A stretch of DNA of 59,151 nt, from contig JACQBZ010000011.1 in the NCBI GenBank assembly GCA_016194285.1, forward strand, positions 1 to 59,151, in the 5' to 3' direction. The first letter of the stretch is position 1. The number at the start of each line of letters is the position of its first letter. Position numbers and translations under genes: made by a program. Of the stretch, positions 310-58,416 are shown piece by piece. The notes under the pieces were generated by a model. That model saw only the letters and a list, made by a program, of their open reading frames with translations, ran no database searches and had not been told where the DNA came from. The DNA comes from Nitrospirota bacterium (GTDB lineage: Bacteria; Nitrospirota; Nitrospiria; JACQBZ01).

Positions 310-334
310 GGGGACAGATTTGAAATCTGTCCCC
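310..334. repeat. Palindrome B, copy 1
   Basis: A perfect inverted repeat with 12-bp arms GGGGACAGATTT and AAATCTGTCCCC around one central base. The same 25 bp recurs at 39757-39781 and, with one terminal mismatch, at 43559-43583. Confidence 0.9.
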
Positions 335-4849: not shown

Positions 4850-5602
4850 TCAGAGACCGATCTCGATCATGGGCGATATGATTTTCGCCCCGGTCATTTT
4901 TTGGGCCGACTTTAGAATCACCCTCCGACCCGAGACTTCCAAGCGTTGCTCCGCAAAATACTGAATGGCCTGCGGAAGAATCCGATGCTCCTGCTCCAAG
5001 ACCCGTGCCGCCAGCGTTTCTTCGGTGTCGCCATCGAAAACCGGCACCGCGGCTTGAATGATGATCGGGCCCTGGTCCATCGACTCATCCACAAAATGGA
5101 CGGTGCAACCCGAAACACGGGCGCCCCATTCCAGAACCTGTCGGTGGGCGTGAAGCCCGGAAAAAGCCGGCAGAAGGCTGGGATGAATGTTGATGATCCG
5201 ATGCTTATACGGCCCGATCAATCGGGACGTAATCAAACGCATGTAACCGGCCAAGATGACCAAATCAACTTGGTGTTTGCGTAATAGATCAACGATGGCC
5301 TCATCATACTTTTCACGACTCGAGTATTCTTTGGGATTCAGAAAAAAGGCCGGGACTCGGCTCCGGCGGGCATGATCGAGAGCCTGGGCCTGTGATTTAT
5401 CACTGATGACCACCTCCACGCTTGCATCGATTAAAGGGGCTCGCGTCGCCCCCTCCACCGGCGAAGCCGGATGGAGCCTCCCCTTCTCGCTCGCCTTGCT
5501 CACTGGGTCGGTCCTCACGGCCGTGGCGGCATCAATGATCGCCTGAAGGTTTGAGCCGCGGCCGGAGATGAGAACCCCCAACCGAAGCTTGGGTTTACTC
5601 AT
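4850..5602 (-). CDS. purN: Phosphoribosylglycinamide formyltransferase (GAR transformylase) with an in-frame repeat insertion
   Basis: Transfers a formyl group from 10-formyl-THF to GAR in purine synthesis. The phosphate-binding start LISGRGSNLQAIIDA, the catalytic NIHPSLLPAF region (Asn and His) and the later SGCTVHFVDESMDQGPII motif (catalytic Asp) are all present. The 250-residue length exceeds the usual 200-215. The excess is a basic, Pro/Ser-rich segment at about residues 29-57 encoded by repeat element A (5435-5505). It falls between the first helix and second strand, where family members have only a short loop. The start overlaps the purM stop by 8 bp, so translation is probably coupled. 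Whether the insert is tolerated or processed is unknown, but the frame is open throughout. Confidence 0.95.
   Translation of the reverse strand: MSKPKLRLGVLISGRGSNLQAIIDAATAVRTDPVSKASEKGRLHPASPVEGATRAPLIDASVEVVISDKSQAQALDHARRSRVPAFFLNPKEYSSREKYDEAIVDLLRKHQVDLVILAGYMRLITSRLIGPYKHRIINIHPSLLPAFSGLHAHRQVLEWGARVSGCTVHFVDESMDQGPIIIQAAVPVFDGDTEETLAARVLEQEHRILPQAIQYFAEQRLEVSGRRVILKSAQKMTGAKIISPMIEIGL
5435..5505 (+). repeat. Repeat element A inside purN
   Basis: A near-complete copy: GGGGCTCGCGTCGCCCCC, CTCCACCGGCGAAGCCGGAT, GGAGCCTCCCCTTCTCGCTC, GCCTTGCTCACTG. Read on the minus strand it encodes PVSKASEKGRLHPASPVEG and a few more residues of PurN, with no stop. Confidence 0.9.
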
Positions 5603-9160: not shown

Positions 9161-10629
9161 GCATGTACTCCTTCCATGGGAAGCGAAATGGTCACGGTGG
9201 TTCCCATTCCCTTTACACTGGCGACCGAAATGGTTCCGCCGTGCTCTTCCAAAACCCGTTTTGTCAACGCAAGTCCAAGTCCGATGCCGAGTTTCTTGGT
9301 CGTAAAATAGGGCTCGAAGATCTTTTGAAGATGATCCCCCTCGATTCCGCAGCCGGTATCTTCAAAATGCACCAAGACCCGGCTGTTCTCGTCATCCAAT
9401 TGTGCATGAATCCGTAATACCCCGCCCTGACTCATCGCCTGAAGCGCATTGACGGTGATGTTCACAAAACAGTTTTTAATCTGCTCCACATCGACCAACA
9501 CCCGCGGAAGATCATTGATGCCTCGGGTCTCAAACCGAACACCTTGATCGATCCCTTTGGGAAGGGCCAATTGCAGCACTTCGGACAAAATGGAGGCCAA
9601 TTCGGCCGATTGCATCTGCAAGCGTATCGGTTTTCCAAAATCGAGAAAATTTTCGATCATCCGGTTCAACCGATGGATCTCGGTTTTGATATTGACAACC
9701 AGTTTGTCGATTTCTTCTTTATCAAGAAAATGGGCCCGATCCAACTGGACGCGCAAGTGGTCGATGGTAAGGTTGATCAGATTCAGAGGATTGCGGATTT
9801 CATGGGCGATACCCGAGGCCAATTGGCCGACGGCCGAGAGATGTTCTGCATGGCGCAGGCGGCCCTCAAGGGATTTCTGCAGCCGAAGCTTCTCCACCAT
9901 CTCATTGAAGCTCCGGGTCAGCTCGCCGATTTCTTCTCCACCCCCCTGCACCACCAGCGGGGTGCTCAGATCGCCGGCCGCAACGTTCTTGGCCGCCTCC
10001 ACAACCTGTTTAATGGGCCGAGTGTACCGCCACGCCAGGTAGAAAGAGAGGAAGATTCCCACCGAAAATATCGCGATATGCACGGCCAACCGTGTATAGA
10101 AACTTTCCCGGATCAGGCGGGAGAAATCATCCATGATCATGATGATATGGACATAGCCCATCTGTTCGCCGCCGACGACAATCGGAACCAGGATGTTATA
10201 GGGCTTTTGGTCTTTTTTCGGTCCCGCATCCTCCCCGATCCGCTCCGTAATGACCAGATCGCGATGCTTGGGATCCGCCGGTCGCTCTTTCCGATGAGGA
10301 TTGGAACTGGCGATGACCTTATTTTCATTGCTCAGGATGGAGATCTCTTTAACGCCTTTCTTATTGAGCCGTGTCACGTAATCCCTCAAGCGGGCTTCAT
10401 CCGAGGCCCCGTGCGTCGTCAATTGCTCGACGCTGATCTGGATCGCCGTCGTCAGGTCTTCCGTGTCGGCCATAATTTCCCTGACGACCGCTCGTTCCGT
10501 CAACCAATAGAATGCCAATGAAGCCATCAAGGATAAAAACAGCAACGAGAGCATCATGAGCAGAAGCTTGGTGTTCAGACGGAGGTGCTCCAAGCGGTTG
10601 GTGATCTTTTTAAAAGCGGATCTTACCAT
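9157..10629 (-). CDS. Membrane sensor histidine kinase, partner of the NtrC-type regulator
   Basis: A 490-residue inner-membrane kinase. It has a first transmembrane helix (about 20-42), a periplasmic sensor region of roughly 130 residues, a second helix (about 178-200) and a HAMP linker (RPIKQVVEAAKNVAAGDLST). These are followed by the HisKA dimerisation domain with phospho-His at about residue 276 (SGIAHEIRNPLNLINL), and an HATPase domain with N box (FVNITVNALQAMSQGG), DTGCGI and a G-rich IGLGLALTKR box. GGAGG is 7 bases before the ATG at 10629. The gene overlaps tsaC upstream by 7 bp and the regulator downstream by 4 bp. The periplasmic part lacks a clear Cys or metal motif, so the signal is unknown. 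Confidence 0.93.
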   Translation of the reverse strand: MVRSAFKKITNRLEHLRLNTKLLLMMLSLLFLSLMASLAFYWLTERAVVREIMADTEDLTTAIQISVEQLTTHGASDEARLRDYVTRLNKKGVKEISILSNENKVIASSNPHRKERPADPKHRDLVITERIGEDAGPKKDQKPYNILVPIVVGGEQMGYVHIIMIMDDFSRLIRESFYTRLAVHIAIFSVGIFLSFYLAWRYTRPIKQVVEAAKNVAAGDLSTPLVVQGGGEEIGELTRSFNEMVEKLRLQKSLEGRLRHAEHLSAVGQLASGIAHEIRNPLNLINLTIDHLRVQLDRAHFLDKEEIDKLVVNIKTEIHRLNRMIENFLDFGKPIRLQMQSAELASILSEVLQLALPKGIDQGVRFETRGINDLPRVLVDVEQIKNCFVNITVNALQAMSQGGVLRIHAQLDDENSRVLVHFEDTGCGIEGDHLQKIFEPYFTTKKLGIGLGLALTKRVLEEHGGTISVASVKGMGTTVTISLPMEGVHA

Positions 10630-11799: not shown

Positions 11800-11872
11800 G
11801 GGGGCTAGCGTCGCCCCCTCCACCGGCGAAGCCGGATGGAGCCTCCCCTTCTCGCTTGCTTTGCTCGCTGAG
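11800..11872 (+). repeat. Repeat element A upstream of purE
   Basis: A near-full copy (GGGGCTAGCGTCGCCCCC, then CACCGGCGAAGCCGG, GGAGCCTCCCCTTCTCGC, TTGCTCGCTG). Its GGGGC end faces purE and lies about 7 bp from the purE ribosome site. A GATTCCCACAGGC stretch related to element F follows it. Confidence 0.9.
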
Positions 11873-24160: not shown

Positions 24161-24231
24161 AGGGGCTCACGTCGCCCCCTCCACCGGCCAAGCCGGATGG
24201 AGCCTCCCCCTCTCGCTCGCCTTGCTCGCTG
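24161..24231 (+). repeat. Repeat element A between oppA and the dehydrogenase gene
   Basis: A full-length copy (AGGGGCTCACGTCGCCCC, CACCGGCCAAGCCGG, GGAGCCTCCCCCTCTCGCTC, GCCTTGCTCGCTG). Its GGGGC end points to oppA. It is followed at 24232-24265 by a GAGACTTCCGCGAGCTTGCC stretch related to element F. Confidence 0.88.
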
Positions 24232-26103: not shown

Positions 26104-26174
26104 CAGCGAGCAAAGCGAGCGAGACGGAGAGGCTCCATCCGGCTTGGCCGGTGGAGGGGGCGACGCGAGCCCCT
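26104..26174 (-). repeat. Repeat element A at the 3' end of the TPR gene
   Basis: A full-length copy reading on the minus strand: TAGGGGCTCGCGTCGCCCCC, CACCGGCCAAGCCGG, GGAGCCTCTCCGTCTCGC, TTTGCTCGCTG. The TAG stop codon of the TPR gene (26173-26175) is built from the first bases of this repeat. Confidence 0.9.
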
Positions 26175-34993: not shown

Positions 34994-35019
34994 GTGGAGG
35001 GGGCGACGCAAGCCCCTAC
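34994..35019 (-). repeat. Truncated repeat element A (first 26 bp)
   Basis: The minus strand reads GTAGGGGCTTGCGTCGCCCC followed by CTCCAC and then unrelated sequence. Its GTAGGGGC end lies 2 bases from the stop codon of the adenosyltransferase gene. Confidence 0.8.
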
Positions 35020-35666: not shown

Positions 35667-37724
35667 TCAAAATCGAAACGTCGCCCCGCCGATGAAGTTC
35701 CGTTCCGGAGAGGGGTTGAATCCGATTCGACTCCCAAACGGGTCGCCCCCAACTTTTCCGACCTCATCATACTTGCGATTCAGAAGATTGTTCACACCGA
35801 AAAATACCTCGCCGGCGATAAAGCGATAGCTTAGCTTCGCATCAACGACGATATATTTGGGGAGTTTTTCTTGCTGATTGGCTAGGTCATTGGCCAAGTA
35901 ACGCGATCCGACGAATCGGCCCGTCGCGGAGAAAACCGGGCCCTTATCTTTTCCCCAGTCAACCGTGGCGCTTCCTGCATGTTTCGGAGTGATGGGAAGA
36001 TGGCTCCCGTCGAACGGGCCCTTTTGAATTTTGGTTCGGGTGATGGTGTAGCTTCCCATGATGCGCAGCGTGGGGGAGGGGCGGATTGCCGCCGATGCCT
36101 CGATCCCCTCGTGCCGCACTTCGGGAACATTCTCATTTACGCCGATCGACGATGTACCTGAGGCGCCAAGCGACGGAGGAACGATGAGAATTTCATTTTT
36201 TACCTCAGTCCGGAAAATAGACAGCGCCCCTTCGAACGCCGACCCGGCCTGGATTTTTTCTCCCGCCTCGTACGTGGTCGCCTGCTCCGGGTCGAGCGGC
36301 GTCACGCCGAAAAGGCCGTGCAGTTCATTCCAATCGGGAAAACGATAGTTTCTGGACCACGTTGCGAACAGACTCGTTGAAGGAGTCGTCAAGTACGTCA
36401 GCCCGATCGTCGGGCTCCAGACCCGGAAGGACTGATTCCCGGAAGACTCGGTCGTTAAGTCCGTCGTTGTTTGCGAATAGGTGTACCGAGACCAATCCAT
36501 CCGTCCGGTCATGTTCAGGGTCAATGCGGACCCTATCGGGAGTTCCTCGCTCACATATGTCCCGATCAATCGTCGCGTATAATCCGTGTTTTCGACATCG
36601 ATGACCGGAAAGCTTGGATAATTGTTTGCGCTTTGTGCGCGGTTCGTCTCCTTGAGTAGATCGACTCCCAGCATGAAACGACTTTCCCGTTCTGCAATTC
36701 GATCGGTGACGCGGTATTTTACAGAAAGCGCCACGGATCGGCTGTCGTTGTTCAGGTCGGTCGATCCCGAATTCGAAACGGTCGTCAGCGATTCATCACC
36801 TCGAAGAGTCTGGCCGGCCGTCAATTCCATCCAATGATTCGGATCCAGATACGAATCAAAAGCGAGGTCGAGCCGTCCCTGATGGGTTCCCGCGGGATCC
36901 AACGGGGTCGTCGATCCGCGCCGGCCAACGGCGGTGATCTCATCCTTCGTGAGGTTTCCGGGCAACAAGTAATCATTGCTGACATAACCGGACCGCAAAT
37001 GAAGCGTTGAAAAGTCGCTGACTTTGTAATTTAAATTCCCGATGTAATTTGAGGCCCGGTAGTCACTGTGCTCGCGGTAACCATCGCTTGTATCATAGCC
37101 GCCATAGAAATAATAGCTGTAGGCACCGGCGGTCTCGGAAATAACCGCCTTTCGTTTCCAATAATCATAACTCCCGCGCTCAAGCGACAGGTCCGTATAG
37201 GGCTCACGGGCCCCGGACTTGGTGATGATGTTGATCACACCCGCGATGGCATTATCTCCATAGAGCGACGAGGACGGACCGCGGTCGATCTCAATCCGAT
37301 CGATAGCCTCCACCGGAATTGCGGCCCAGTCCGGATTGCTGCTGTCCACTAAATTGGTCCGCCGGCCGTCGATCAGGACGAGCACGCGGCTGCCGTTTCC
37401 TCCGCCGTTATTGAATCCACGGCCGTCGACCATGATCCCGGACGGCGTCGATCCACTGGTGTTGGTAACCCAGAGGCCGGACTCCGTCCGGAGCAGATCC
37501 CCGGGATTCGTCGCGTTCGTCCGTCGGATGTCCTCCGATGTGATCACGGTGACATGAGAGGGAACCTGCAGGGCTTTCTCTTCCTGCCGCGTGGCCGAGC
37601 CTACCACCGGGGTCGGTTCCAGACTCTCGTCGGTATCCTGCGCAAAACCCGTTCCGACGGATGCCTGGAAGAAGCTTAAAAACAACCCGAAAATACAGAC
37701 GCCTATTAGAGCAAATCTCATCAC
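35667..37724 (-). CDS. TonB-dependent outer-membrane receptor (second receptor of the B12 unit)
   Basis: A 685-residue outer-membrane receptor. A signal peptide (about 1-28) is followed by the TonB box region PTPVVGSATRQEEKALQVPS, then the plug domain with VTVITSEDIRRTNATNPGDL and RIEIDRGPSSSLYGDNAIAG. The strand-rich barrel ends in GGATFRF with the terminal aromatic residue. It differs clearly from the BtuB-like protein upstream, and the substrate could be a corrinoid, corrinoid-derived molecule or other chelate. It lies 48 bp downstream of that gene and upstream of the adenosyltransferase, so it shares the cobalamin-riboswitch control. Confidence 0.92.
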   Translation of the reverse strand: MMRFALIGVCIFGLFLSFFQASVGTGFAQDTDESLEPTPVVGSATRQEEKALQVPSHVTVITSEDIRRTNATNPGDLLRTESGLWVTNTSGSTPSGIMVDGRGFNNGGGNGSRVLVLIDGRRTNLVDSSNPDWAAIPVEAIDRIEIDRGPSSSLYGDNAIAGVINIITKSGAREPYTDLSLERGSYDYWKRKAVISETAGAYSYYFYGGYDTSDGYREHSDYRASNYIGNLNYKVSDFSTLHLRSGYVSNDYLLPGNLTKDEITAVGRRGSTTPLDPAGTHQGRLDLAFDSYLDPNHWMELTAGQTLRGDESLTTVSNSGSTDLNNDSRSVALSVKYRVTDRIAERESRFMLGVDLLKETNRAQSANNYPSFPVIDVENTDYTRRLIGTYVSEELPIGSALTLNMTGRMDWSRYTYSQTTTDLTTESSGNQSFRVWSPTIGLTYLTTPSTSLFATWSRNYRFPDWNELHGLFGVTPLDPEQATTYEAGEKIQAGSAFEGALSIFRTEVKNEILIVPPSLGASGTSSIGVNENVPEVRHEGIEASAAIRPSPTLRIMGSYTITRTKIQKGPFDGSHLPITPKHAGSATVDWGKDKGPVFSATGRFVGSRYLANDLANQQEKLPKYIVVDAKLSYRFIAGEVFFGVNNLLNRKYDEVGKVGGDPFGSRIGFNPSPERNFIGGATFRF

Positions 37725-37772
37725 ACTCCCATTTCTCTATAACGCTGAAACAAACCGCTTATGACCGAACGT

Positions 37773-39653
37773 TTAGAATGTCACCTTCAGACCGCCATAA
37801 GCGGAGCGACTGGCCGTTCCGTAACCCAATATCTCTTCATATTTACGATTAAAAAGATTTTCTGCGCGTGCGAAGATATGGACCTTCGAGGTCAGATCGA
37901 ACGAGCCCGTTGCATTGACAATCGTATAGGCCCCGACCGGTTGGGTGTTGGCCGTATCGTCAAACCGTTTTCCCACGTATCGGAAATCCAGCAGCAGCTT
38001 GACCAACGGCGCTGGAAGAACACTGAGCCCCACATTCGCTTTCTGACGGGGTCGACGAGGAAGTTCCTGACCGTTTTCTTCATTCAGGGTAGTAGTGTAG
38101 GTATAGTTTGTTTTCAACGTAACGGCCTTGACGGGGCTGAGATCAAGCTCCAACTCCGCGCCTTTGGCCATAGCCTTCCCGATGTTTTCGGGGAGAAACG
38201 TCGTCGAGTCAAACACGATCAGGTTGTCAAAGCTCGTATGAAAATATGTCCCGCGGAAGCTCACTGCATCGGGGAAGAGAATCTGTTCAAAGCCCCCCTC
38301 GATCGTCTCGCTGGTTTCGGGTTTTAGATCGGGATTCCCATATCCCGGGAAGAACAGATCGTTGAGTGTGGGACCATGAAACCCCGTCCCATAAGCGGCT
38401 CGAAGCTTCGTGCCGGTCATGGGAACCCGATAGGCCGCCTCAGCTTTGTAGGTAATCACGTCCCCGAAGCGGCTGTTGTAATCGGCCCTGACGCCGACGA
38501 CCTGGGAAAAAAGATCCGAGACCTGATGCTGGTTTTGAACATAGACGGCCGAGTTGCTGATCGTCTTGTCAAAGGCATCCTTTCCTCGTCCGGCCTGACC
38601 GTCATGTTCGTAGCCGATGGTAAGAAGGTCGGTCGTACCGATCGAAAAGTGATGAAGCCAATCCAACTGCCGGTTCTGGGCGGCGATATTATAATTATTG
38701 AAGAGATCAGCCGGATCGGGATCATGGCCCGTTAATTCGTCGCGGTTGAAACCCAGATGGAGTTCCTGGCTCCACCAGCTCGTCAGCGTCCGGGAATAAC
38801 GGCCGGAGAGTAGGAGAACCCGATGATCCTGGACATAGTTGGAATCGTCAGCGGGACAAACAAAGGTCACCGGATCGCATCCGTCCAGATCCGTCCTGGA
38901 AGTCATGTAGCGGGCGGTCAATTCCAGTTTTCCGATCGCGCCCGCATTCCAGCCCAGCCTGGAAGCGAGGGTCGTATTTCCAGTACCATCCGCCTCGGGA
39001 TTGCCGTTCCGGCGATCCGCGCTCGAAAACCCGGCGGTGTCAAAACGCGCAACGGCCAGCGAATAATCCAACGAGGGCATGGTTCCCGTCACCCCGACCG
39101 ATTCACGGAAACTCCGATACGATCCGGCTTCCGCAGACAGTGAAACGCTCGGCGCGCCCTTTCCATGTTTCGTAATGATATTGATCACCCCGCCGATGGC
39201 CTCCGAACCGTATAAGGCGCTCTGCGGCCCGCGAACAATCTCGATCCGCTCGATATTATCCACGGTCAGATCGGCAAAATCAAAGCCCCCCGTCATCGGG
39301 CTGTTGACCCGCATCCCATTGACGAGAACCAGGGTGTGGCTGGAATTCCCTCCCCGGATGAAAACCGACGTCGCTCCGCCCGGCCCGCCGGTCTGTACCA
39401 CATCCATGCCCGGCACGTCCCGAAGGACTTCCAAGACCGTCCTGGCCTTTTTCGCTTGAATCTCGTCCTCCGTAATGACCGTCACGGAACCGGCGACCTC
39501 ATTCAGCGGGACTTCGGTCTTTGTCGCGGTCACCACGACCGGCCCCAGTTCCACTGGACCTCCGGCCTCTTGAGCGAAATCCACACACACCAATGCCTGC
39601 AACAATCCGAACCCTATCGCGAAAACGAACAGACTTCTCTGAATAAATTTCAT
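37773..39653 (-). CDS. btuB: BtuB-like TonB-dependent cobalamin receptor
   Basis: A 626-residue outer-membrane transporter for B12 or other corrinoids. The start at 39653 has AGGAGGTG 4 bases upstream. The signal peptide (about 1-27, LLQALVCVDFAQEA) is followed by the TonB box GPVVVTATKTEVPLNEVAGS and the plug with RIEIVRGPQSALYGSEAIGG and VINIITKHGKG. The C-terminus is typical: RAENLFNRKYEEILGYG and a final GGLKVTF. The cobalamin riboswitch directly upstream and the btuFCD-tonB genes beside it support B12 as substrate. Confidence 0.95.
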   Translation of the reverse strand: MKFIQRSLFVFAIGFGLLQALVCVDFAQEAGGPVELGPVVVTATKTEVPLNEVAGSVTVITEDEIQAKKARTVLEVLRDVPGMDVVQTGGPGGATSVFIRGGNSSHTLVLVNGMRVNSPMTGGFDFADLTVDNIERIEIVRGPQSALYGSEAIGGVINIITKHGKGAPSVSLSAEAGSYRSFRESVGVTGTMPSLDYSLAVARFDTAGFSSADRRNGNPEADGTGNTTLASRLGWNAGAIGKLELTARYMTSRTDLDGCDPVTFVCPADDSNYVQDHRVLLLSGRYSRTLTSWWSQELHLGFNRDELTGHDPDPADLFNNYNIAAQNRQLDWLHHFSIGTTDLLTIGYEHDGQAGRGKDAFDKTISNSAVYVQNQHQVSDLFSQVVGVRADYNSRFGDVITYKAEAAYRVPMTGTKLRAAYGTGFHGPTLNDLFFPGYGNPDLKPETSETIEGGFEQILFPDAVSFRGTYFHTSFDNLIVFDSTTFLPENIGKAMAKGAELELDLSPVKAVTLKTNYTYTTTLNEENGQELPRRPRQKANVGLSVLPAPLVKLLLDFRYVGKRFDDTANTQPVGAYTIVNATGSFDLTSKVHIFARAENLFNRKYEEILGYGTASRSAYGGLKVTF

Positions 39654-39699
39654 CCTGCACCTCCTTTTGGTTACGAAAAGAATGGGTTGCACTATACCG

Positions 39700-39893
39700 A
39701 ATGGATCGGTCTCCTGACTTGCGGATCGCCCTCCTCCCCGCCTTCCCGTACCGGCCGGGGACAGATTTGAAATCTGTCCCCTCCCGGTTCAGTGGCTCCT
39801 GGGGATTCGTCCCCGCTCACAGTGGCGGCCCCGCCCCCGATTCTTCCTTGCCTAAGCTTGGAATCACGGGGTTCCCGGAATCCATCCAACCTT
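39700..39893 (-). promoter_or_regulatory. Cobalamin riboswitch controlling the BtuB-like operon
   Basis: A minus-strand RNA element. From its 5' end it has CCGGGAACCCCGTG, the GGGGGCGGGGCCGCCACTGT core, GAGCGGGGACGAATCCCCAG, GAGCCACTG, a variable hairpin, and CGGGAAGGCGGGG. It ends in the B12 box AAGTCAGGAGACC (39708-39720). These match the conserved cobalamin aptamer in order. The variable hairpin between CACTG and GGGAAG contains palindrome B (39757-39781). The 55 bases between aptamer and btuB contain no strong terminator. Control is probably at translation, as AGGAGGTG is close to the aptamer end. Confidence 0.95.
39757..39781. repeat. Palindrome B, copy 2, inside a cobalamin riboswitch stem
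   Basis: The 25-bp palindrome (arms GGGGACAGATTT and AAATCTGTCCCC) lies in the peripheral stem of the riboswitch. It is flanked on the RNA by ACCGG on one side and CCGGT on the other, so it extends an existing hairpin. Confidence 0.9.
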
Positions 39894-39927
39894 TTTAATT
39901 TTGTAACAATCCCCCTTTCGTTTCAGT

Positions 39928-40620
39928 TCACGGCAGATTCAATTGAAAGACCAGCGGCACCTGGACCCGGACTTTTTCATTCCATGAAACGGGCAAACGG
40001 GAAAACCGACCCAGTCGTTTCACCGTCGTAACCGCCTCTTCGTCTAAGATTTTTGACCGGGACGATTCCAGAAGACGGATCTCTTGGATTTCCCCCGATG
40101 CATTGATCATGAATTGAACGCGCGCTGTTCCCTCCTGACCTTGAATCCTGGCCAGCCAGGGATATCGTTTGGCCTGTTCAAGGCGACTCCGCACATCTTG
40201 AAGAAAACGAGTCAACTCCTCTGAGCGGGAACCGTTCCCCGCGGCTTCCTCATCCCGAGTTCCAGAACCTTCAAGAGCGGGTGATTCGGCTGAAGACATC
40301 CGGCTTTGCTCGCGAGCCGGCGCCGATATAACCGATTCAGCATTGATTGAATCTGCGGCTTCGGCCTCAACCGGCTCGGATGGTCTGGGTTGAACCGGCG
40401 GTGGGCTCGATGACACCGGCGGAGTCCGCACCAGCCGCAGAGACTTGGCTGCAACCGGAACGGTCTCGACCGGGCTCACTAGGACAACCTGTATCACCGA
40501 AACGGACGGAATCGTCCGGACCGTCTTCAGGACGAAAAAGATGATCAGCCCGCCGATCGCAAGATGTAATCCGGCCGAGATCCCGATAAATTTTAAAAAC
40601 GGCTGTTTTGATATCCCCAT
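39928..40620 (-). CDS. tonB: Energy transducer TonB
   Basis: A 230-residue TonB: an N-terminal cytoplasmic and membrane anchor (about 10-35, FIGISAGLHLAIGGLIIFFV) with the SxxxH-type motif. A Pro/Ser/Glu-rich periplasmic spacer (about 60-130) follows, then the C-terminal TonB domain (KRYPWLARIQGQEGTARVQF, DEEAVTTVKRLGRFSRLP). It couples the ExbBD proton-driven motor to outer-membrane receptors. It is the last gene of the riboswitch-controlled btuFCD unit, 4 bp after btuD, and lies just ahead of the riboswitch of the btuB unit. ExbB and ExbD are not in the window. Confidence 0.93.
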   Translation of the reverse strand: MGISKQPFLKFIGISAGLHLAIGGLIIFFVLKTVRTIPSVSVIQVVLVSPVETVPVAAKSLRLVRTPPVSSSPPPVQPRPSEPVEAEAADSINAESVISAPAREQSRMSSAESPALEGSGTRDEEAAGNGSRSEELTRFLQDVRSRLEQAKRYPWLARIQGQEGTARVQFMINASGEIQEIRLLESSRSKILDEEAVTTVKRLGRFSRLPVSWNEKVRVQVPLVFQLNLP

Positions 40621-40624
40621 CGTC

Positions 40625-41428
40625 TTAATCCGGAACCATTGTAAGTCTTGGTTTCCCCGTGATCGGGTGTGAATCGATTAAAGTTCGGCAGCGGTAGACC
40701 TCTTCGATCGCCTTTGCGGTCAATACCTCCCACGGCGTCCCCAGTCCCGCAATCCGGCCCTCTTTCAAGAGAAGAAGCCGCCGGCAGATCTGCGATGCCA
40801 TGTTCAGGTCGTGCGAGACGACTACCACGGTCATCTTCTCATTGCGGTTCAACTCCCCCAACAAGGAATAAATCTGAGACTGATGATGCAGATCCAGAAA
40901 GGTGGCCGGTTCATCCAGTAACAGAACCTGCGGCTGCTGCGCCAGTGCGCGGGCGATGATCACCCGTTGCTTCTCCCCTCCCGACAATTCGGAAAACAGC
41001 CGGCCGGCAAATCGCCCCACGCCCATCCGTTCCATCGCCGATCGTGCGATGCGATAATCCTCGGCGCTCTCGAAGGCCCAGCCTTTCAGATACGGGTACC
41101 GGCCCATCAGAACCACTTCAAGAACGGTGTAAGGAAAGACGACCGGATGTTCTTGAGGGACCATCCCCACCCGTTGGGCCAGGCGGCGGAATGAAATGGC
41201 CCGAAGATTCGTCGATTCAAAGCGGACGTCTCCTTCGACGGGACGCTGTTGCCGCGCCAGGATTTTCAGCAGGCTTGTCTTTCCGGAGCCGTTGGGCCCG
41301 ATGATGCCCAGGATCTCGCCGCGTTCGATCGTGAGGTTGATCCCTTTCAGGACCCATTCCAATCCATAACGGAACCCCACTTCTTTTAATGCATACAGGG
41401 CTGTCATCTCTGTGTCCGCCATAATCAT
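40625..41428 (-). CDS. btuD: Cobalamin ABC transporter ATPase, BtuD/FhuC-like
   Basis: A 267-residue cytoplasmic ATPase of the FecCD/BtuCD importer class. It has Walker A GPNGSGKTSLLK, Q loop VPQEHPVVFPYT, signature LSGGEKQRVIIARALAQ, Walker B QVLLLDEPATFLDLHHQSQ and switch His VVSHDLNMASQICR. It follows the permease gene by 3 bp and belongs to the riboswitch-controlled operon btuF-btuC-btuD-tonB. The ATPs bound at the dimer drive B12 import across the inner membrane. An ATG two codons in is an alternative start. Confidence 0.93.
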   Translation of the reverse strand: MIMADTEMTALYALKEVGFRYGLEWVLKGINLTIERGEILGIIGPNGSGKTSLLKILARQQRPVEGDVRFESTNLRAISFRRLAQRVGMVPQEHPVVFPYTVLEVVLMGRYPYLKGWAFESAEDYRIARSAMERMGVGRFAGRLFSELSGGEKQRVIIARALAQQPQVLLLDEPATFLDLHHQSQIYSLLGELNRNEKMTVVVVSHDLNMASQICRRLLLLKEGRIAGLGTPWEVLTAKAIEEVYRCRTLIDSHPITGKPRLTMVPD

Positions 41429-41431
41429 TGT

Positions 41432-42478
41432 TCACGCATTGGAAATTTTCATCTTCCCGCGCCAGAGGAGATAGAGGAAAAAAGGCCCGCCGCAGAGGGC
41501 CGTGATCACACCGACCGGAATTTCGGTCGGAGCAATCAGTGTTCGCGCAATCATATCGGCCGCCATTAAAAATATCCCCCCGCCCAGAACGGAAGCCGGC
41601 AGCAAGAGGCGATGGTCCGAACCGATCAGCATACGGAGAACATGGGGAATCATGATTCCGACAAAACTGATCAGCCCGCTGACCGAGACCACGGCGCCGG
41701 TTAATAGCGCCGACGCGAAAAAAGCGATCCGCTTGGTCCGCTCCGCGTCGAGGCCGAGCGTGACGGCCGTCTCATCCCCCAAAGCCAGCAGGTTCAATCC
41801 TCGCCCCAGTCCGAATAGCACGGCCATTCCGATCAAAGCATAGACCGCCACGACCGCCAGCGCCTTCATGTCCGGAGAGCCCAGATTTCCCATCAACCAG
41901 TAGACAATGCCCATGACCTTGTCGGCATCCATCATATAGGCGATGAACATGATGACGGCCGAGAGCATCGCGTTTAAAATCACCCCGCCCAGCAAGAGTG
42001 TCTGAACAAAGATTTTCCCGTGAACTTGAGAAAGACGATATAGCGAAAACAGTGTGATCAGACCGCCTAAAAATCCAAACAGCGGCAACGTGCTCAAACC
42101 CCAATAGAAAACATTCAGTCCGACTAATAGAGAGAGAACGACTCCCAACGCCGAACCGCTCGAGATCCCGATCACGAATGGATCGGCGAGCGGATTTCGA
42201 AGAAGCGCCTGAAGCGTCACCCCGACCACCGCCAGTGTTCCGCCCACCAACCCGGCAAGCAAAACGCGCGGCAGTCGGACCTGTAGAAGAATCGTGCTCT
42301 TGCCGACATCCATTGCACCGCCGGTTTCTGATGAGAGGTGGGCCCAAAAAATTCCAACGGCATCCGACAGGCTGATCGGCTCCGTACCCTCGAGCAGGCA
42401 GATGAGGATCGTGATCAACCAAATCACCGTAAGAAGAGAGAGAATCCTCAACCATCGTCCGATGGTAAGCATCGTCAT
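41432..42478 (-). CDS. btuC: Cobalamin ABC transporter permease, BtuC/FecCD family
   Basis: A 348-residue inner-membrane permease with about ten helices. Family landmarks are VRLPRVLLAGLVGGTLAVVG, LQALLRNPLADPFVIGISSG (the typical NPLADP-lGisSGA loop), a GLISFVGIMIPHVLRMLIGS block and the C-terminal IPVGVITALCGGPFFLYLLW. It forms the channel of the BtuCD-F importer. The start overlaps the btuF stop (ATGA), so the two are coupled. Confidence 0.95.
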   Translation of the reverse strand: MTMLTIGRWLRILSLLTVIWLITILICLLEGTEPISLSDAVGIFWAHLSSETGGAMDVGKSTILLQVRLPRVLLAGLVGGTLAVVGVTLQALLRNPLADPFVIGISSGSALGVVLSLLVGLNVFYWGLSTLPLFGFLGGLITLFSLYRLSQVHGKIFVQTLLLGGVILNAMLSAVIMFIAYMMDADKVMGIVYWLMGNLGSPDMKALAVVAVYALIGMAVLFGLGRGLNLLALGDETAVTLGLDAERTKRIAFFASALLTGAVVSVSGLISFVGIMIPHVLRMLIGSDHRLLLPASVLGGGIFLMAADMIARTLIAPTEIPVGVITALCGGPFFLYLLWRGKMKISNA

Positions 42479-43392
42479 CGCACCGGTTGAAGGTCGGCGG
42501 CCGGATGGAGCAGCCGCGCCAGTTCTTCAACGCCGTCGAGGATTCGCGGGCCCGGTCGGTTCAATAGATCACGGCTCACTTTGTAAATTTTTCCATTCCT
42601 CACCGCGGGAAGAGAAGACCAGCGGCTCCAGTGATGTTTCTCCTGATCCGAGAGAACCTGATCCGCGTCCATCGCGAGCACGATCACCTCCGGATTCTGC
42701 CGGATTACATATTCCATCGAGACGATCGGATAGGCCTTCTCCAGCCCGCCGGTGATATTGACACCGCCGGCCTCGCGGATTAAATCATTTAAGTAACTTC
42801 CTTTCCCGACCGAGATCAAGGGTTCATCATCCACGACGTAGAGCAAACGAGGCCGCGGATCAGACTGAAGCTTCTGTTGGAGCGAATTTAGTCTTCCGCG
42901 CAGCTGTCGTACTTTTTCGGCCGCCGTCTCTTCCGCTCCGGTGATCTTTCCCAAAACAAGAATCGTCTCGAAGATCTTTTCGATGGAAGATGGATCGACC
43001 GTAAAGTACGGGACATGAAACTGCTCGAACCGCGCGAGGCTTTGGTTTTGATAGATCCCGGCGACAGCCACGATCAGGTCGGGATGGAGCGAGATGATCT
43101 TTTCAAGGTTTGGGTTCAGGCCCCCGACCCGGGGTTTCGTCACGGCCGCCGGCGGATAATTACAATAGTCCGTAACGCCGACGATCCGGTCATCAAGCCC
43201 GAGCGAAAAGAGAATTTCGGTCAGCCCGGGTGCAAGAGAGACGATTCGCTGCGGAAGCGTTGTGAATCGGACCGAACGGCCCAGATCGTCCGTCACGGTG
43301 ATCGTCTCGGCACGTGCAGCGGGAAGCGTGAAGGGTAAGACGTGAGACGTGAGGAGAAAAAGAGCAGCGATGATGATAAATTTTGAGCGCAT
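42475..43392 (-). CDS. btuF: Periplasmic cobalamin-binding protein, BtuF-like
   Basis: A 305-residue binding protein of the helical-backbone class. The signal peptide (about 1-28) ends PAARAE. The mature protein starts with TVTDDLGRSVRFTTLPQRIV and then LAPGLTEILFSLGLDDRIVG, the BtuF/FecB signatures. The C-terminal lobe has a WSSLPAVRNGKIYKV segment. It delivers B12 to BtuCD. The ATG directly follows a T-run, and the ribosome site GGGGA lies within the terminator stem (43393-43431), so riboswitch control acts right at this start. Confidence 0.95.
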   Translation of the reverse strand: MRSKFIIIAALFLLTSHVLPFTLPAARAETITVTDDLGRSVRFTTLPQRIVSLAPGLTEILFSLGLDDRIVGVTDYCNYPPAAVTKPRVGGLNPNLEKIISLHPDLIVAVAGIYQNQSLARFEQFHVPYFTVDPSSIEKIFETILVLGKITGAEETAAEKVRQLRGRLNSLQQKLQSDPRPRLLYVVDDEPLISVGKGSYLNDLIREAGGVNITGGLEKAYPIVSMEYVIRQNPEVIVLAMDADQVLSDQEKHHWSRWSSLPAVRNGKIYKVSRDLLNRPGPRILDGVEELARLLHPAADLQPVR

Positions 43393-43431
43393 AAAAAATC
43401 CCCAAAGGCATTTCGAATACCCTTGAGGATT
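43393..43431 (-). terminator. Riboswitch expression platform: terminator that also buries the btuF ribosome site
   Basis: On the minus strand, AATCCTCAAGG pairs with CCTTTGGGGATT and is followed by TTTTTT and the btuF ATG. The GGGGA ribosome site is in the 3' arm. The element lies about 70 bases downstream of the B12 box of the upstream riboswitch. Confidence 0.85.
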
Positions 43432-43496
43432 GCACCCTGTTTCTTCACCCTAAGGTGTGCTCATCTTCCTCTCTTCGACCGGAGAGAAACGAACCG

Positions 43497-43680
43497 CTCA
43501 TTCAGGCAGGTCTTCTGGCTTGTGGATCATCCTCCGCCTACGTCTTCCCGTCCCGGCTAGGGACAGATTTGAAATCTGTCCCCTTCTGGTTCAGTGACTT
43601 GATTGCAGGCTTCGTCCCCACTCACAGCGGCGGGACCGCCCCCGATTTCAACGGGGTTCCCTTGGCCTGAATGTATTATG
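43497..43680 (-). promoter_or_regulatory. Cobalamin riboswitch controlling btuFCD-tonB
   Basis: A minus-strand RNA with the conserved order AAGGGAACCCCGTTG, GGGGGCGGTCCCGCCGCTGT, GAGTGGGGACGAAGCC, AAGTCACTG, a variable hairpin, GACGGGAAGACG and the B12 box AAGCCAGAAGACCTGCC (43505-43521). Palindrome B (43559-43583) forms the variable hairpin, at the same place as in the other riboswitch of this window. A promoter lies just upstream (43689-43718) and a terminator-type expression platform downstream (43393-43431). Confidence 0.95.
43559..43583. repeat. Palindrome B, copy 3, inside the btuF cobalamin riboswitch
   Basis: Identical to the other B copies except for one outer base (A for G at 43559). 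It sits between the conserved CACTG and GGGAAG elements of the aptamer. Confidence 0.9.
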
Positions 43681-43688
43681 TGGCTCTA

Positions 43689-43718
43689 TCTATACCAGAC
43701 AACGAAATAGTTTGTCAA
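43689..43718 (-). promoter_or_regulatory. Promoter for the btuFCD-tonB transcript
   Basis: Minus-strand TTGACA (43713-43718), 18-bp spacer, TATAGA (43689-43694). The transcript would begin at about 43682, just 5' of the riboswitch. Confidence 0.65.
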
Positions 43719-43720
43719 CT

Positions 43721-43754
43721 GTAGATTCCCACAGGCTTGCCCGCGGGAATCTAC
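43721..43754. repeat. Element F hairpin
   Basis: Perfect 10-bp inverted repeats GTAGATTCCC and GGGAATCTAC around 14 bases (ACAGGCTTGCCCGC). No T-run follows. Related but diverged stretches follow repeat A at about 11876-11900 and 24232-24265. It lies between the riboflavin synthase gene and the btuF promoter. Confidence 0.7.
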
Positions 43755-43765
43755 TTCGCGAGCAC

Positions 43766-44416
43766 CTATAACAATCCCCGCCGTCTCAAATACTCCCGGT
43801 CGATTTTTTGTGGAGTTCCTTCCGGTCCAGTCTCTTGAAGGAGTCGTTCGACATATTTCCCGATTAGATCACACTCCAGGTTGACACCGCTGCCGATCCC
43901 CTTCAGTCCGAGCGCGGTCACCTTTGCGGTGTGAGGGATGATCGCAACCTGAATCTCCTTGTCGGTCACCTGATTGATCGTCAGGCTGATCCCGTCCACG
44001 GTGATCGATCCCTTCTTGACGCAGTACCGCAGCAGCTCTTTCGGGATTTCAATCGAGAGGACAAGCGCTTCGTCTTCCGGACGACGGTCCCGGATCCGGC
44101 CGACGCCATCGATATGCCCGCTCACAAGGTGTCCGCCCAGTCGGCTGTTCACCCGTAGGGCGCGCTCGAGATTCACCGCGTCACCCACGTTCAGGGAGCC
44201 CAGATTCGTGACGCTCAGCGTCTCGGGCGAGACGTCCGCCGTGAATTCCCCGTTCGCCGTCCCCGTCACGGTCAGGCAGACGCCGTTCACCGTGAGGCTG
44301 TCGCCGATGGAGAGATCCTCCAGGACCGTCCGGGCCAGGACGGACAACCGGGCCGACTTTGCATCGCGGTCGAAGCCCCGGACAACACCCATCTCCTCAA
44401 TGATGCCGGTAAACAT
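43766..44416 (-). CDS. ribE: Riboflavin synthase alpha subunit
   Basis: Dismutates two 6,7-dimethyl-8-ribityllumazines to riboflavin. The 216-residue protein consists of two lumazine-binding repeats. It starts MFTGIIEEMGVVRGF with GDSLTVNGVCLTV in the first repeat, and has GHLVSGHIDGVGRI and GSITVDGISLTINQV in the second. The promoter at 44423-44452 puts the transcription start at the ATG, so the mRNA is probably leaderless. No FMN riboswitch is seen. ribD is 7 kb away, and other rib genes are outside the window. Confidence 0.96.
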   Translation of the reverse strand: MFTGIIEEMGVVRGFDRDAKSARLSVLARTVLEDLSIGDSLTVNGVCLTVTGTANGEFTADVSPETLSVTNLGSLNVGDAVNLERALRVNSRLGGHLVSGHIDGVGRIRDRRPEDEALVLSIEIPKELLRYCVKKGSITVDGISLTINQVTDKEIQVAIIPHTAKVTALGLKGIGSGVNLECDLIGKYVERLLQETGPEGTPQKIDREYLRRRGLL

Positions 44417-44422
44417 GAAACC

Positions 44423-44452
44423 ATCATACCAGAGGACGTTTCAGACTGTCAA
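44423..44452 (-). promoter_or_regulatory. Promoter for riboflavin synthase (leaderless)
   Basis: Minus-strand TTGACA (44447-44452), 18-bp spacer, TATGAT (44423-44428). The ATG at 44416 is 6 bases past the -10 box, so initiation should fall at or near its A. Confidence 0.7.
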
Positions 44453-44494
44453 AACCGGTGGGTCATGAAAAAAGGGATACGGGTCAGAGTAAAT

Positions 44495-45793
44495 CTAGGA
44501 GAGGATTCCAATTTTATTTTTGCCCGTTCGCTTCGCCTGGTACAGGGCGTCGTCGGCCGTTTGAACCAGTTTCAGTAAATCTTTTTCACCCTTGACGCTC
44601 GTTGCAACGCCGAGGCTGATCGTTAACTTCCCGCCCGGCTGGGTCTCTTGATGGGCAAACGGGTATTCTTCCACCGCTTTTCTCAATCCCTCCCCGATTT
44701 TGAAGGCAGCGGCAAAGTCCGTTTCAGGGAGGATCACCATAAATTCTTCCCCGCCGATGCGGCAGACGAAGTCCACGCTCCGGACGTTTCTCTTCAGAAT
44801 CATTCCCAAGTTTCTGAGCAGATCATCCCCTTTCAAATGACCGTGGGCGTCGTTGTACGACTTAAAATCGTCGACATCGATGAGGATGATGGAAAGCGGG
44901 TGATTGAACCGTTCATTTCGTTTGATCTCTTCTCTCAACTTCTCCATAAAGAAGCGGCGGTTGTACAAACCGGTCAGCGAATCGGTGATGGCCAGCTGCT
45001 GTGTCAGCTCGATTTTTTTATCGAGGTCCCTTTTCATGCCGGAGATGGCTTCGACCATTTGATTGAATTCTCCGGCCAGATTTTCGATTTCATCTTTTGT
45101 CCGTATCGTCAATCGGTAATCCAGGTTGCCCTGTCCGACGGTCTGGGCGCCTCGATGAAGATCCAGAATCGGCCGGATCACAAACCGGGAAAGGTAAAAC
45201 GAAAGCAGAGCAAAAAAGATCACGATCGTCGCCACGATTCCGTAGAAAACCAACGTCACGTTTTCGCCCTTGGATCGTGCGTCATGAACCATCCGGATCA
45301 TTTCTTTCTCGGAAAGGACACGAAACTCGTCGGCTTTCCTGACCATGTTTCCTGAGAAAACAGTGGCCTCGTGGAGCAATTGGGCGCCCTTCCGATTACC
45401 GATGGGTCGATCGATAAACAAGATCGTGACCAGCATTTCACTCAATCGCAGGACGTCGTGATTGAGCTCTCCGGACAACGTTTCCCAGCGGCGATCTCCA
45501 TGATACCGTTGAAGGTCTTTCGTTATTTGGAAGATCTCGTTGCTCAGTTGATCAAACCGGTCTCTTTCTTTGACATTTCCCGAGATCAGGTAGTTGTTGG
45601 CCGGATCCAAAAACATATGAAGACGCAATTGCAGATGATCGGTCAATTCCACCTTGCGACCCTCTTCCTGAACGGCACCCGTCGCGATGTTGATGTCCCG
45701 AACCTCCAGCAAGACGATTCCCAAGGAGATAAGAAAAATAAGGCTGAAAGCAAGAAAGGAGCCGAGTAATTTCCCTCGAATACCGAATTTCAA
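44495..45793 (-). CDS. Membrane diguanylate cyclase (HAMP-GGDEF)
   Basis: Makes c-di-GMP from two GTP in the cytoplasm. The 432-residue protein has an N-terminal helix (about 8-30), a periplasmic sensor region (30-178), a second helix (179-205), a HAMP linker (about 207-258) and a GGDEF domain. The catalytic GGEEF is at 347-351, and the inhibitory I-site RSVD (338-341) lies five residues before it, so feedback control is likely. The start overlaps the small binding-protein gene stop by 4 bp. The binding protein and a porin form one operon with it, which suggests the sensor reads something carried by those proteins. Confidence 0.93.
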   Translation of the reverse strand: MKFGIRGKLLGSFLAFSLIFLISLGIVLLEVRDINIATGAVQEEGRKVELTDHLQLRLHMFLDPANNYLISGNVKERDRFDQLSNEIFQITKDLQRYHGDRRWETLSGELNHDVLRLSEMLVTILFIDRPIGNRKGAQLLHEATVFSGNMVRKADEFRVLSEKEMIRMVHDARSKGENVTLVFYGIVATIVIFFALLSFYLSRFVIRPILDLHRGAQTVGQGNLDYRLTIRTKDEIENLAGEFNQMVEAISGMKRDLDKKIELTQQLAITDSLTGLYNRRFFMEKLREEIKRNERFNHPLSIILIDVDDFKSYNDAHGHLKGDDLLRNLGMILKRNVRSVDFVCRIGGEEFMVILPETDFAAAFKIGEGLRKAVEEYPFAHQETQPGGKLTISLGVATSVKGEKDLLKLVQTADDALYQAKRTGKNKIGILS

Positions 45794-46275
45794 TGTCGTT
45801 CCTCCTGGATGATATAAATGATTTGAATTTCCGACGCCTCATTGGCAAATTCTTTGGGCAGATAACCAATCCCCCACGGATCCTCGCGAACGGCGTTCAG
45901 AATCTCCGAAGGATCCGTCTTGACCAAGGGAGGGGTCAATCCTTCCTGAAATAATTTCTTGACCCAATACAATTTATAGTCCTTGGCGGACAATCCGATG
46001 ACATTCGACAGAAAGGCCTCTTTCACTTGCCCCTCCGCGTATTGGATCGGCCGGACCGGCATTCCCCCCACAAACCGGATTTCTCCGAGATAAATCCCGC
46101 GGATCTCGGTCTTGGAGAGATGGCTCAAGGGACCATCTTTGTTCACGATCACCGCGACCTGCTCGGCATGAAGATTCACGGAGCCGCACAGCAGGCAGAT
46201 CAGGACCAGCATGCTCAGGATCAGGCCCCGATTTCTCAGGATGGCAGGACCGCTTTTTAAAAACTGAACGACCAC
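45790..46275 (-). CDS. Small exported PBP-like (phosphate-binding-type) protein
   Basis: A 161-residue exported protein with a signal helix (about 15-37, SMLVLICLLCGSVNLHA). The mature part resembles a PstS-like lobe: VIVNKDGPLSHLSKTEIRGI is followed by a YLGEIRFVGGMPVRPI segment and a DPWGIGYLPKEF segment with the Gly-rich ligand loop. It is only about half a normal PstS, so it may be a single-lobe sensor component. It sits between the porin and diguanylate cyclase genes and overlaps both (19 and 4 bp). It could bind a solute and signal to the cyclase. Confidence 0.8.
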   Translation of the reverse strand: MVVQFLKSGPAILRNRGLILSMLVLICLLCGSVNLHAEQVAVIVNKDGPLSHLSKTEIRGIYLGEIRFVGGMPVRPIQYAEGQVKEAFLSNVIGLSAKDYKLYWVKKLFQEGLTPPLVKTDPSEILNAVREDPWGIGYLPKEFANEASEIQIIYIIQEERH

Positions 46276-47471
46276 TGCGCCTCCAGCACGTGAAACGTCT
46301 CGCTCCCGACTTTTCGATCCCGACGATACTGAAACTTCAGAGCGCTTCTCAGTTCGTCTATGTCGTATCGCACGCCCGCGATCGTTTGATGACGGGACGT
46401 GTTATTCTGAAGCTCGCTAAAATAGGGATCGGCCGGATTGACATCCAACGTTTCATAACGGGTGTACGGCGTGATGTCGCGGGCGACTTTATAGCCCAAC
46501 TGAATGTAGTATGCCGTGGCATCATGATCCAGGTTGAGCATTTTAAAATACTCCGTAATAAACTCCACGTTGTTGTGCATATAGGAAAAATCGCTTCCGA
46601 ATACCCGCTCGTCAATGTTTCCATTGGCATCGGTGCCGACCCGGTCCGACGTGCCGAAGACTCCGAGGGTCAAACCCGGCAGGCGGTTCGGCTGAATCGA
46701 CAGTCGCAACGCGACCTGCTTCGCACTATTATTATCCGCGATGTCATTCGGCACCAGCAGCTTGGTCGTTGAATCGATCCGGTGGCCGTTTCCGATATCC
46801 AGTTCATACATCCATCGCAGAGTCGGAAGACTTTGAGAGCCCATCAGTTCGATCCCGACGGTATGAACCGGGAGGACCCCGCCATCATCCTCAAAGGCCA
46901 AGAAAAAAGGACGGTCCACCGTGAGAAAGAGCTGTTTGCCATGGTGATAGGTATTGTTCCAATAACCCAGGGCCGTATGCTGGCGTCCGACCCGTACGGT
47001 CAGAAGATCATTGAATGTATACCCGACCCAAAACCTCTCCAAGTCAAAGTTACCCCCACTGGTCTGTCCATTGATCTCAAGCTGCAACTCGGCCAGGAAA
47101 GTCAGCCGTGGACCGAAATGGCTCGTGCTGTAAAGGTCCAAGGAACCTAAGGAAAATGACGGGTGGTTTGCCTCCCGGTCTTTAGTGAAAAAATTAACGT
47201 CACCATACGCTCCGAGATTCATGCCGAATTGCGGATGCAGATCCTCCGAGGATTCCTTTTCCTCAAGGATCTGAATTCTTTGACGTAGTTGGTTTATTTC
47301 TTCCTGTTGCCGATCGCTAATGGAGGGTTGGCTTTGGGTGCTGATTTGGGTCCGATCTTGTTCATCAGCCCTCAATGGGGTCGCCTGGAACAAGGCGAGA
47401 AGAACCAAACTGATAAAAAATGCTTGTTTTTTAATGAGATAGCGTATTTTGCTCGACTGGATGGTTACCAC
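46257..47471 (-). CDS. Outer-membrane porin-like beta-barrel with N-terminal coiled coil
   Basis: A 404-residue exported protein. The GTG start at 47471 has GGAGG 7 bases upstream. A signal peptide (about 15-36) is followed by a coiled-coil stretch (QQEEINQLRQRIQILEEKES), as in other porins that tether to peptidoglycan. The remaining 330 residues alternate aromatic and polar residues in beta-barrel style, with TVRVGRQHTALGYWNNTYHH, and end in the aromatic SFSF. It resembles Gram-negative porins or alginate-export-type barrels. It is first in the porin, PBP-like and diguanylate cyclase operon. Confidence 0.85.
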   Translation of the reverse strand: MVTIQSSKIRYLIKKQAFFISLVLLALFQATPLRADEQDRTQISTQSQPSISDRQQEEINQLRQRIQILEEKESSEDLHPQFGMNLGAYGDVNFFTKDREANHPSFSLGSLDLYSTSHFGPRLTFLAELQLEINGQTSGGNFDLERFWVGYTFNDLLTVRVGRQHTALGYWNNTYHHGKQLFLTVDRPFFLAFEDDGGVLPVHTVGIELMGSQSLPTLRWMYELDIGNGHRIDSTTKLLVPNDIADNNSAKQVALRLSIQPNRLPGLTLGVFGTSDRVGTDANGNIDERVFGSDFSYMHNNVEFITEYFKMLNLDHDATAYYIQLGYKVARDITPYTRYETLDVNPADPYFSELQNNTSRHQTIAGVRYDIDELRSALKFQYRRDRKVGSETFHVLEAQWSFSF

Positions 47472-58343: not shown

Positions 58344-58416
58344 GTAGGGGCTCGCGTCGCCCCCTCCACCGGCAAAGCCGGATGGAGCTTCCCCTTCTCG
58401 CTCGCTTTGCTCGCTG
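58344..58416 (+). repeat. Repeat element A upstream of ppdK
   Basis: A full-length copy (GTAGGGGCTCGCGTCGCCCC, CACCGGCAAAGCCGG, GGAGCTTCCCCTTCTCGC, TTTGCTCGCTGG). Its GTAGGGGC end faces ppdK, two bases from the ATG at 58341. Confidence 0.92.

Follow-up and report, generated by a model that had tools for sequence, protein, structure and literature searches.

A dispersed palindrome, probably derived from the ends of Y1-transposase units, in the arms of two cobalamin riboswitches of a Nitrospirota bacterium

Described palindromes and the probable origin of B

Short REP- and RPE-like palindromes are known both between genes and inside protein genes, with in-frame residence in conserved protein genes having been described for RPE and some REP families (PMC3733652). 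The same work named the TIRtron units and gave their motif, GGGGWSAS. As for cobalamin riboswitches, their P6 extension varies greatly, as exemplified by that of M. tuberculosis metE, which also harbors a uORF in its P9-P10 extension (PMC11260477). In the open-access literature, to which our search was confined (subscription literature lay outside it), we found no riboswitch carrying a REP/RPE-type element. Here we describe a 25-nt palindrome, GGGGACAGATTTGAAATCTGTCCCC (designated B), that resides in two cobalamin riboswitches, RS1 and RS2, within a 59,151-nt window, this being the whole stretch of DNA analyzed.

A likely source of B was recognized in a related genome (G006), where a PF01797 transposase gene (G006:C216) is flanked by perfect 21-bp inverted repeats, AAAAGGGGACAGATTTATTTT, in which the 12 bases following AAAA are exactly one arm of B, GGGGACAGATTT; the arms of B thus correspond to the terminal inverted repeats (TIRs) of a Y1 transposase unit, as would be expected of a TIRtron-derived palindrome. 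B resembles the described TIRtron/TIRYT units (PMC3733652) in that its arms begin with GGGGACAG, which fits GGGGWSAS, and in that the same 12 nt tip the inverted repeats around the PF01797 gene, but it differs from them in consisting of two tips joined by one base, and a riboswitch site is absent from that description. TIR-like sequences are present in further relatives too, and in G003 (L181) two such ends lie nearly back to back with no gene between them. Based on the match to the G006 transposon tip and the fit to GGGGWSAS, we place B with the TIR-derived palindromes; it is probably a miniature REP/RPE-like palindrome that came from the ends of Y1-transposase TIRtrons, and a Y1 transposase may have mobilized it. 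In the source genome, a draft of 88.6% completeness, we found no transposase with matching inverted repeats; its four Y1_Tnp genes are accompanied by different repeats, and a single TIR-like site stands alone. At the loci searched, the full B palindrome did not flank any Y1_Tnp gene, with other or longer inverted repeats being found there instead.

B also has features of two better known families. Like the REP/RAYT systems (PMC2817692, PMC8266576), it is a short dispersed palindrome, mainly intergenic with some intragenic copies, in a genome with Y1 transposase relatives; however, it lacks GTAG and has 11 copies, as compared to the >100 usual for REPs. Within the flanks of 33 B copies, we found neither the GTAG tag of classical REP (GGAG precedes the core in some) nor the CGTC tag of RPE. 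B shares with RPE (PMC3733652) the in-frame location in conserved genes, including tRNA pseudouridine synthase B, but is shorter, has no CGTC and matches a transposon end. The in-frame copies lie inside intact ORFs with strong Pfam matches, namely TsaD in the source genome (L009), MutS in G003 (L086) and TruB in G006 (L091), as is expected of a dispersed element. In the G003 MutS ORF (215-3022 of L086), B is read as GGGQISNLSP, and near the end a further peptide, GRGPISNPSP, resembles that of B.

Two cobalamin riboswitches with B in the same arm

The Rfam covariance model for cobalamin riboswitches (RF00174; gathering score 31.5 bits) found exactly two matches in the window, both full-length, both on the minus strand and both above the gathering score. 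The features of the locus are as follows.

43488-43712, minus strand: RS1, cobalamin riboswitch (RF00174, 85.1 bits)
43544-43596, minus strand: RS1 arm, CACTG to GGGAAG (sequence, pattern match); element at about 43555-43591
43559-43583, minus strand: palindrome B in RS1, with one terminal mismatch (AGGGACAG...)
42475-43392: periplasmic binding protein, Peripla_BP_2, downstream of RS1 (ORF and Pfam)
41432-42478: FecCD permease, downstream of RS1 (ORF and Pfam)
40625-41428: ABC ATPase, ABC_tran, downstream of RS1 (ORF and Pfam)
39928-40620: TonB protein, TonB_C, downstream of RS1 (ORF and Pfam)
39687-39900, minus strand: RS2, cobalamin riboswitch (RF00174, 81.0 bits)
39742-39794, minus strand: RS2 arm, CACTG to GGGAAG (sequence, pattern match); element at about 39753-39789
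39757-39781, minus strand: palindrome B in RS2, exact
37773-39692: ORF of a TonB-dependent receptor, downstream of RS2 (ORF and Pfam)
310-334, plus strand: third window copy of B, exact, at the tip-hairpin position of a dispersed repeat
284-304, 5436-5456, 11801-11821, 24162-24182, 26153-26173, 34996-35016 and 58347-58367: copies of the dispersed repeat in the window

The genes downstream of both riboswitches are of the B12/TonB uptake type by Pfam, in keeping with membership of RF00174. The listed GTG start of the TonB-dependent receptor overlaps the end of RS2, and a start further in is more likely. As a separate observation, this btu-type region (window 36000-46500, compared with L076 and L074) shows 82-83% identity to G005 and G003, which belong to other genera, vs. 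72-78% to the two congeners, a pattern that may reflect transfer or uneven rates.

In line with the initial annotation, B sits between CACTG and GGGAAG in both riboswitches, as confirmed by the RF00174 and pattern matches, the RS1 copy having its mismatch at one end. The RS1 arm reads CACTG-AACCAGAA-B-AGCCGGGAC-GGGAAG and the RS2 arm CACTG-AACCGGGA-B-GGCCGGTAC-GGGAAG, with B in identical orientation and with an identical CACTG junction; in 100 dinucleotide shuffles, the chance expectation for matches to the B 25-mer in the window was 0. The flanks of the two copies had been described as different, which holds for 5 of the 20 flanking positions (10 on each side) but not for the other 15, an agreement to be viewed against a mean of 7.6 (sd 2.2) of 20 among all pairs of copies. 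Given this 15/20 match, together with the recurrence of the RS2 flank AACCGGGAG next to B copies of other genomes, the block shared by the two arms spans approximately 37-42 nt and not 25. Many copies in several genomes also have a weak common flank sequence, approximately GGCTG-B-CTCCCGGTT, and these common flanks likewise argue for an element unit nearer 37 nt than 25.

Both aptamer cores keep the RF00174 family consensus, and scores stay high with B present. Folded in isolation, each arm forms one extended hairpin (-24.7 kcal/mol for RS1 and -35.4 for RS2), with the short arms of relatives folding at -6.3 and -11.7 kcal/mol; the outer stem of RS1 pairs poorly, and the B flanks in RS1 pair less well than those in RS2. 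Extended peripheral arms are common to these riboswitches and M. tuberculosis metE (PMC11260477), but in the present case the extension consists of a repeat that occurs genome-wide, and two paralogous aptamers have the same one. We surmise that the B arm is most likely neutral or nearly so for ligand binding and, judging from the conserved core sequence, that aptamer function would be retained in RS1 and RS2. One could argue instead that B is a selected functional module in both RNAs, for example via trans pairing of self-complementary arms that couples the uptake genes, given that both arms have an almost complete 25-nt core with a strong fold, and that a self-complementary arm could in principle dimerize. 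We consider such a role very improbable in view of the finding that no relative carries B in the arm, that copies of B at unrelated sites are just as intact, and that pairing between the flanks is weaker for the RS1 copy than for RS2.

Cores, arms and the route of B into both riboswitches

To compare the two riboswitches with their orthologues, identities were computed with each aptamer split at the arm, so that the core parts and the arm were scored apart. The RS1 core has an identity of 0.92-0.95 to RS1 of the congeners G001 and G002 and of 0.89/0.96 to RS1 of G005 from the same family, and the RS2 core has 0.89/0.94 to RS2 of G002; between RS1 and RS2 of the same genome, in contrast, core identity is 0.66/0.69, similar to that in G002 (0.64/0.73). 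The arms display the reverse pattern, with 0.88 identity between RS1 and RS2 vs. 0.19-0.24 between the RS1 arm and its orthologues and 0.49 between the RS2 arm and its orthologue. In this mosaic, the cores follow orthology and the arms follow each other, indicating that the aptamers are old paralogues with only the arm common to both. A recent duplication of one riboswitch, with B inherited jointly, would account for the 0.88 identity of the arms, but as each core shows 0.89-0.96 identity to the orthologous core of relatives that lack B, core orthology effectively rules it out, in agreement with the initial view that this was not simply one duplicated riboswitch.

The proposal that B occupies a variable stem is supported, the arm being length-variable; relatives carry unrelated stems there. 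In G001-G005, the RS1 arm is a short hairpin devoid of B. A longer arm is present in RS2 of G002, with a sequence unique within that genome; this long arm was considered as a possible ancient B copy or a different repeat, as it shares GGGAGGGGACA with B, and was rejected on account of that uniqueness. The long arms in G023 and G044 were likewise rejected as repeats, each having at most one additional copy, and that a degenerate one. Among 270 genomes of the class, a gapped pattern for B in the arm matched only the source genome, twice. With the same pattern, no riboswitch was found in the GTDB species collection; the sole match there (JACRNJ010000072.1, L111) falls within a methyltransferase-like ORF, where Rfam has no match. 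As far as present data go, the arrangement is private to the source genome. As a lead only, a low-scoring RF00174 match in G012 (36.8 bits), from which one internal hairpin seems to be missing, has a B copy at its 5' edge (G012:C16, approximately 9305-9327; 1501-1523 of L085); this may represent a second contact, independent of the first, between B and a cobalamin riboswitch.

We propose, with a probability of roughly 0.7, that B is a TIRtron-derived dispersed palindrome of which a stretch of roughly 37 nt took the place of the tip hairpin of the arm in both riboswitches, the aptamers being otherwise conserved. In the order of events that we infer, the unit would first have replaced the small terminal hairpin of one length-variable arm; B would then have been copied from this arm into the other, via conversion or template switch that did not extend beyond the arm, so that both arms would end in a long B hairpin with the rest of the aptamer conserved. 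Copying has a slight edge over two independent insertions, one per arm, into a permissive site or weak target, which are nearly as likely. The evidence in favor of copying comprises: 1) the same orientation and the same left junction; 2) the presence of B in both riboswitches of one genome and in none of those in four other B-bearing genomes; 3) a probability of ~1.5e-5 that at least 2 of 11 B copies fall by chance in two 60-nt arms, assuming uniform insertion into 230 kb of permissive DNA. Two insertions, on the other hand, are compatible with the flanks common to both arms, which are largely the element's own, and with the same riboswitch arm of G012, where a CACT(C/T)GT-type repeat that is dispersed at many places in that genome lies inside, which fits with an arm that tolerates foreign inserts. 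Counting against copying, the agreement of the RS2 flanks with unrelated B copies (14/20) is nearly as good as that with RS1 (15/20), and just 5-7 identical bases would delimit a copied tract on each side.

The initial annotation had also suggested that B inserts into hairpin-forming DNA, and as a rule this did not hold up. Over 32 B copies, there was no excess of pairing between left and right flanks (7.25 pairs vs. 7.17 for mismatched flanks, permutation P 0.45), and none of 30 other loci with B copies harbored an Rfam RNA, so we rejected general hairpin targeting; an insert-tolerant site is enough to explain the location in the arm. The third window copy, said to lie in an unrelated repeat, is indeed an exact B within a dispersed repeat, but its position is not random: with the left part of the repeat at 284-304, B at 310-334 stands where other copies have a small tip hairpin, e.g. 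ACCGGCGAAGCCGGAT, which looks like hairpin replacement. At least six hybrids of B with the dispersed repeat were seen in G012. This repeat begins with GGGGCTCGCGTCGCCCCCTCC, has a central hairpin that is exchangeable and carries TCTCGCTCGC as its tail, and its conserved 21-mer has 78 matches in the source genome (≤3 mismatches), 33 of them on the reverse strand, as well as 42 in G002 and 17 in G012.

Dispersal of B and implications for riboswitch arms

That B is a dispersed, mobile-type element is supported, and it is probably mobile. Allowing ≤3 mismatches in a 23-mer, there are 11 copies in the source genome and 8-43 each in G003, G004, G006 and G012, the copies in relatives having been read as a sample. 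By the same measure, the two congeners G001 and G002 as well as G005 have zero copies, a patchy spread that suggests separate gains. Among the outcomes that the initial annotation had named as counting against its reading were unrelated stems in relatives combined with no B elsewhere; the stems of relatives are indeed unrelated, with G001, G002 and G005 devoid of B, but B does occur elsewhere in the source genome and in other relatives. In addition, a 54-kb contig filed as viral (IMGVR_UViG_3300033489_000011; L013, L014, L019) contains at least 10 exact B copies and may be bacterial DNA.

The presence of B in two riboswitch aptamers, with orthologues without B displaying the state before its arrival, indicates how the peripheral arms of RNAs can be enlarged through element capture, and provides a natural with/without pair for testing the tolerance of the cobalamin aptamer. 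These data suggest that a mobile-type DNA repeat can colonize regulatory RNA with the cores apparently undestroyed. More tentatively, and with less confidence than in the capture itself, we speculate that riboswitch side-arms may be exchangeable modules, with a mobile palindrome entering one aptamer arm and being copied to a second, non-orthologous aptamer while the cores stay untouched. If true, peripheral stems would evolve by module transfer and not by point change only.
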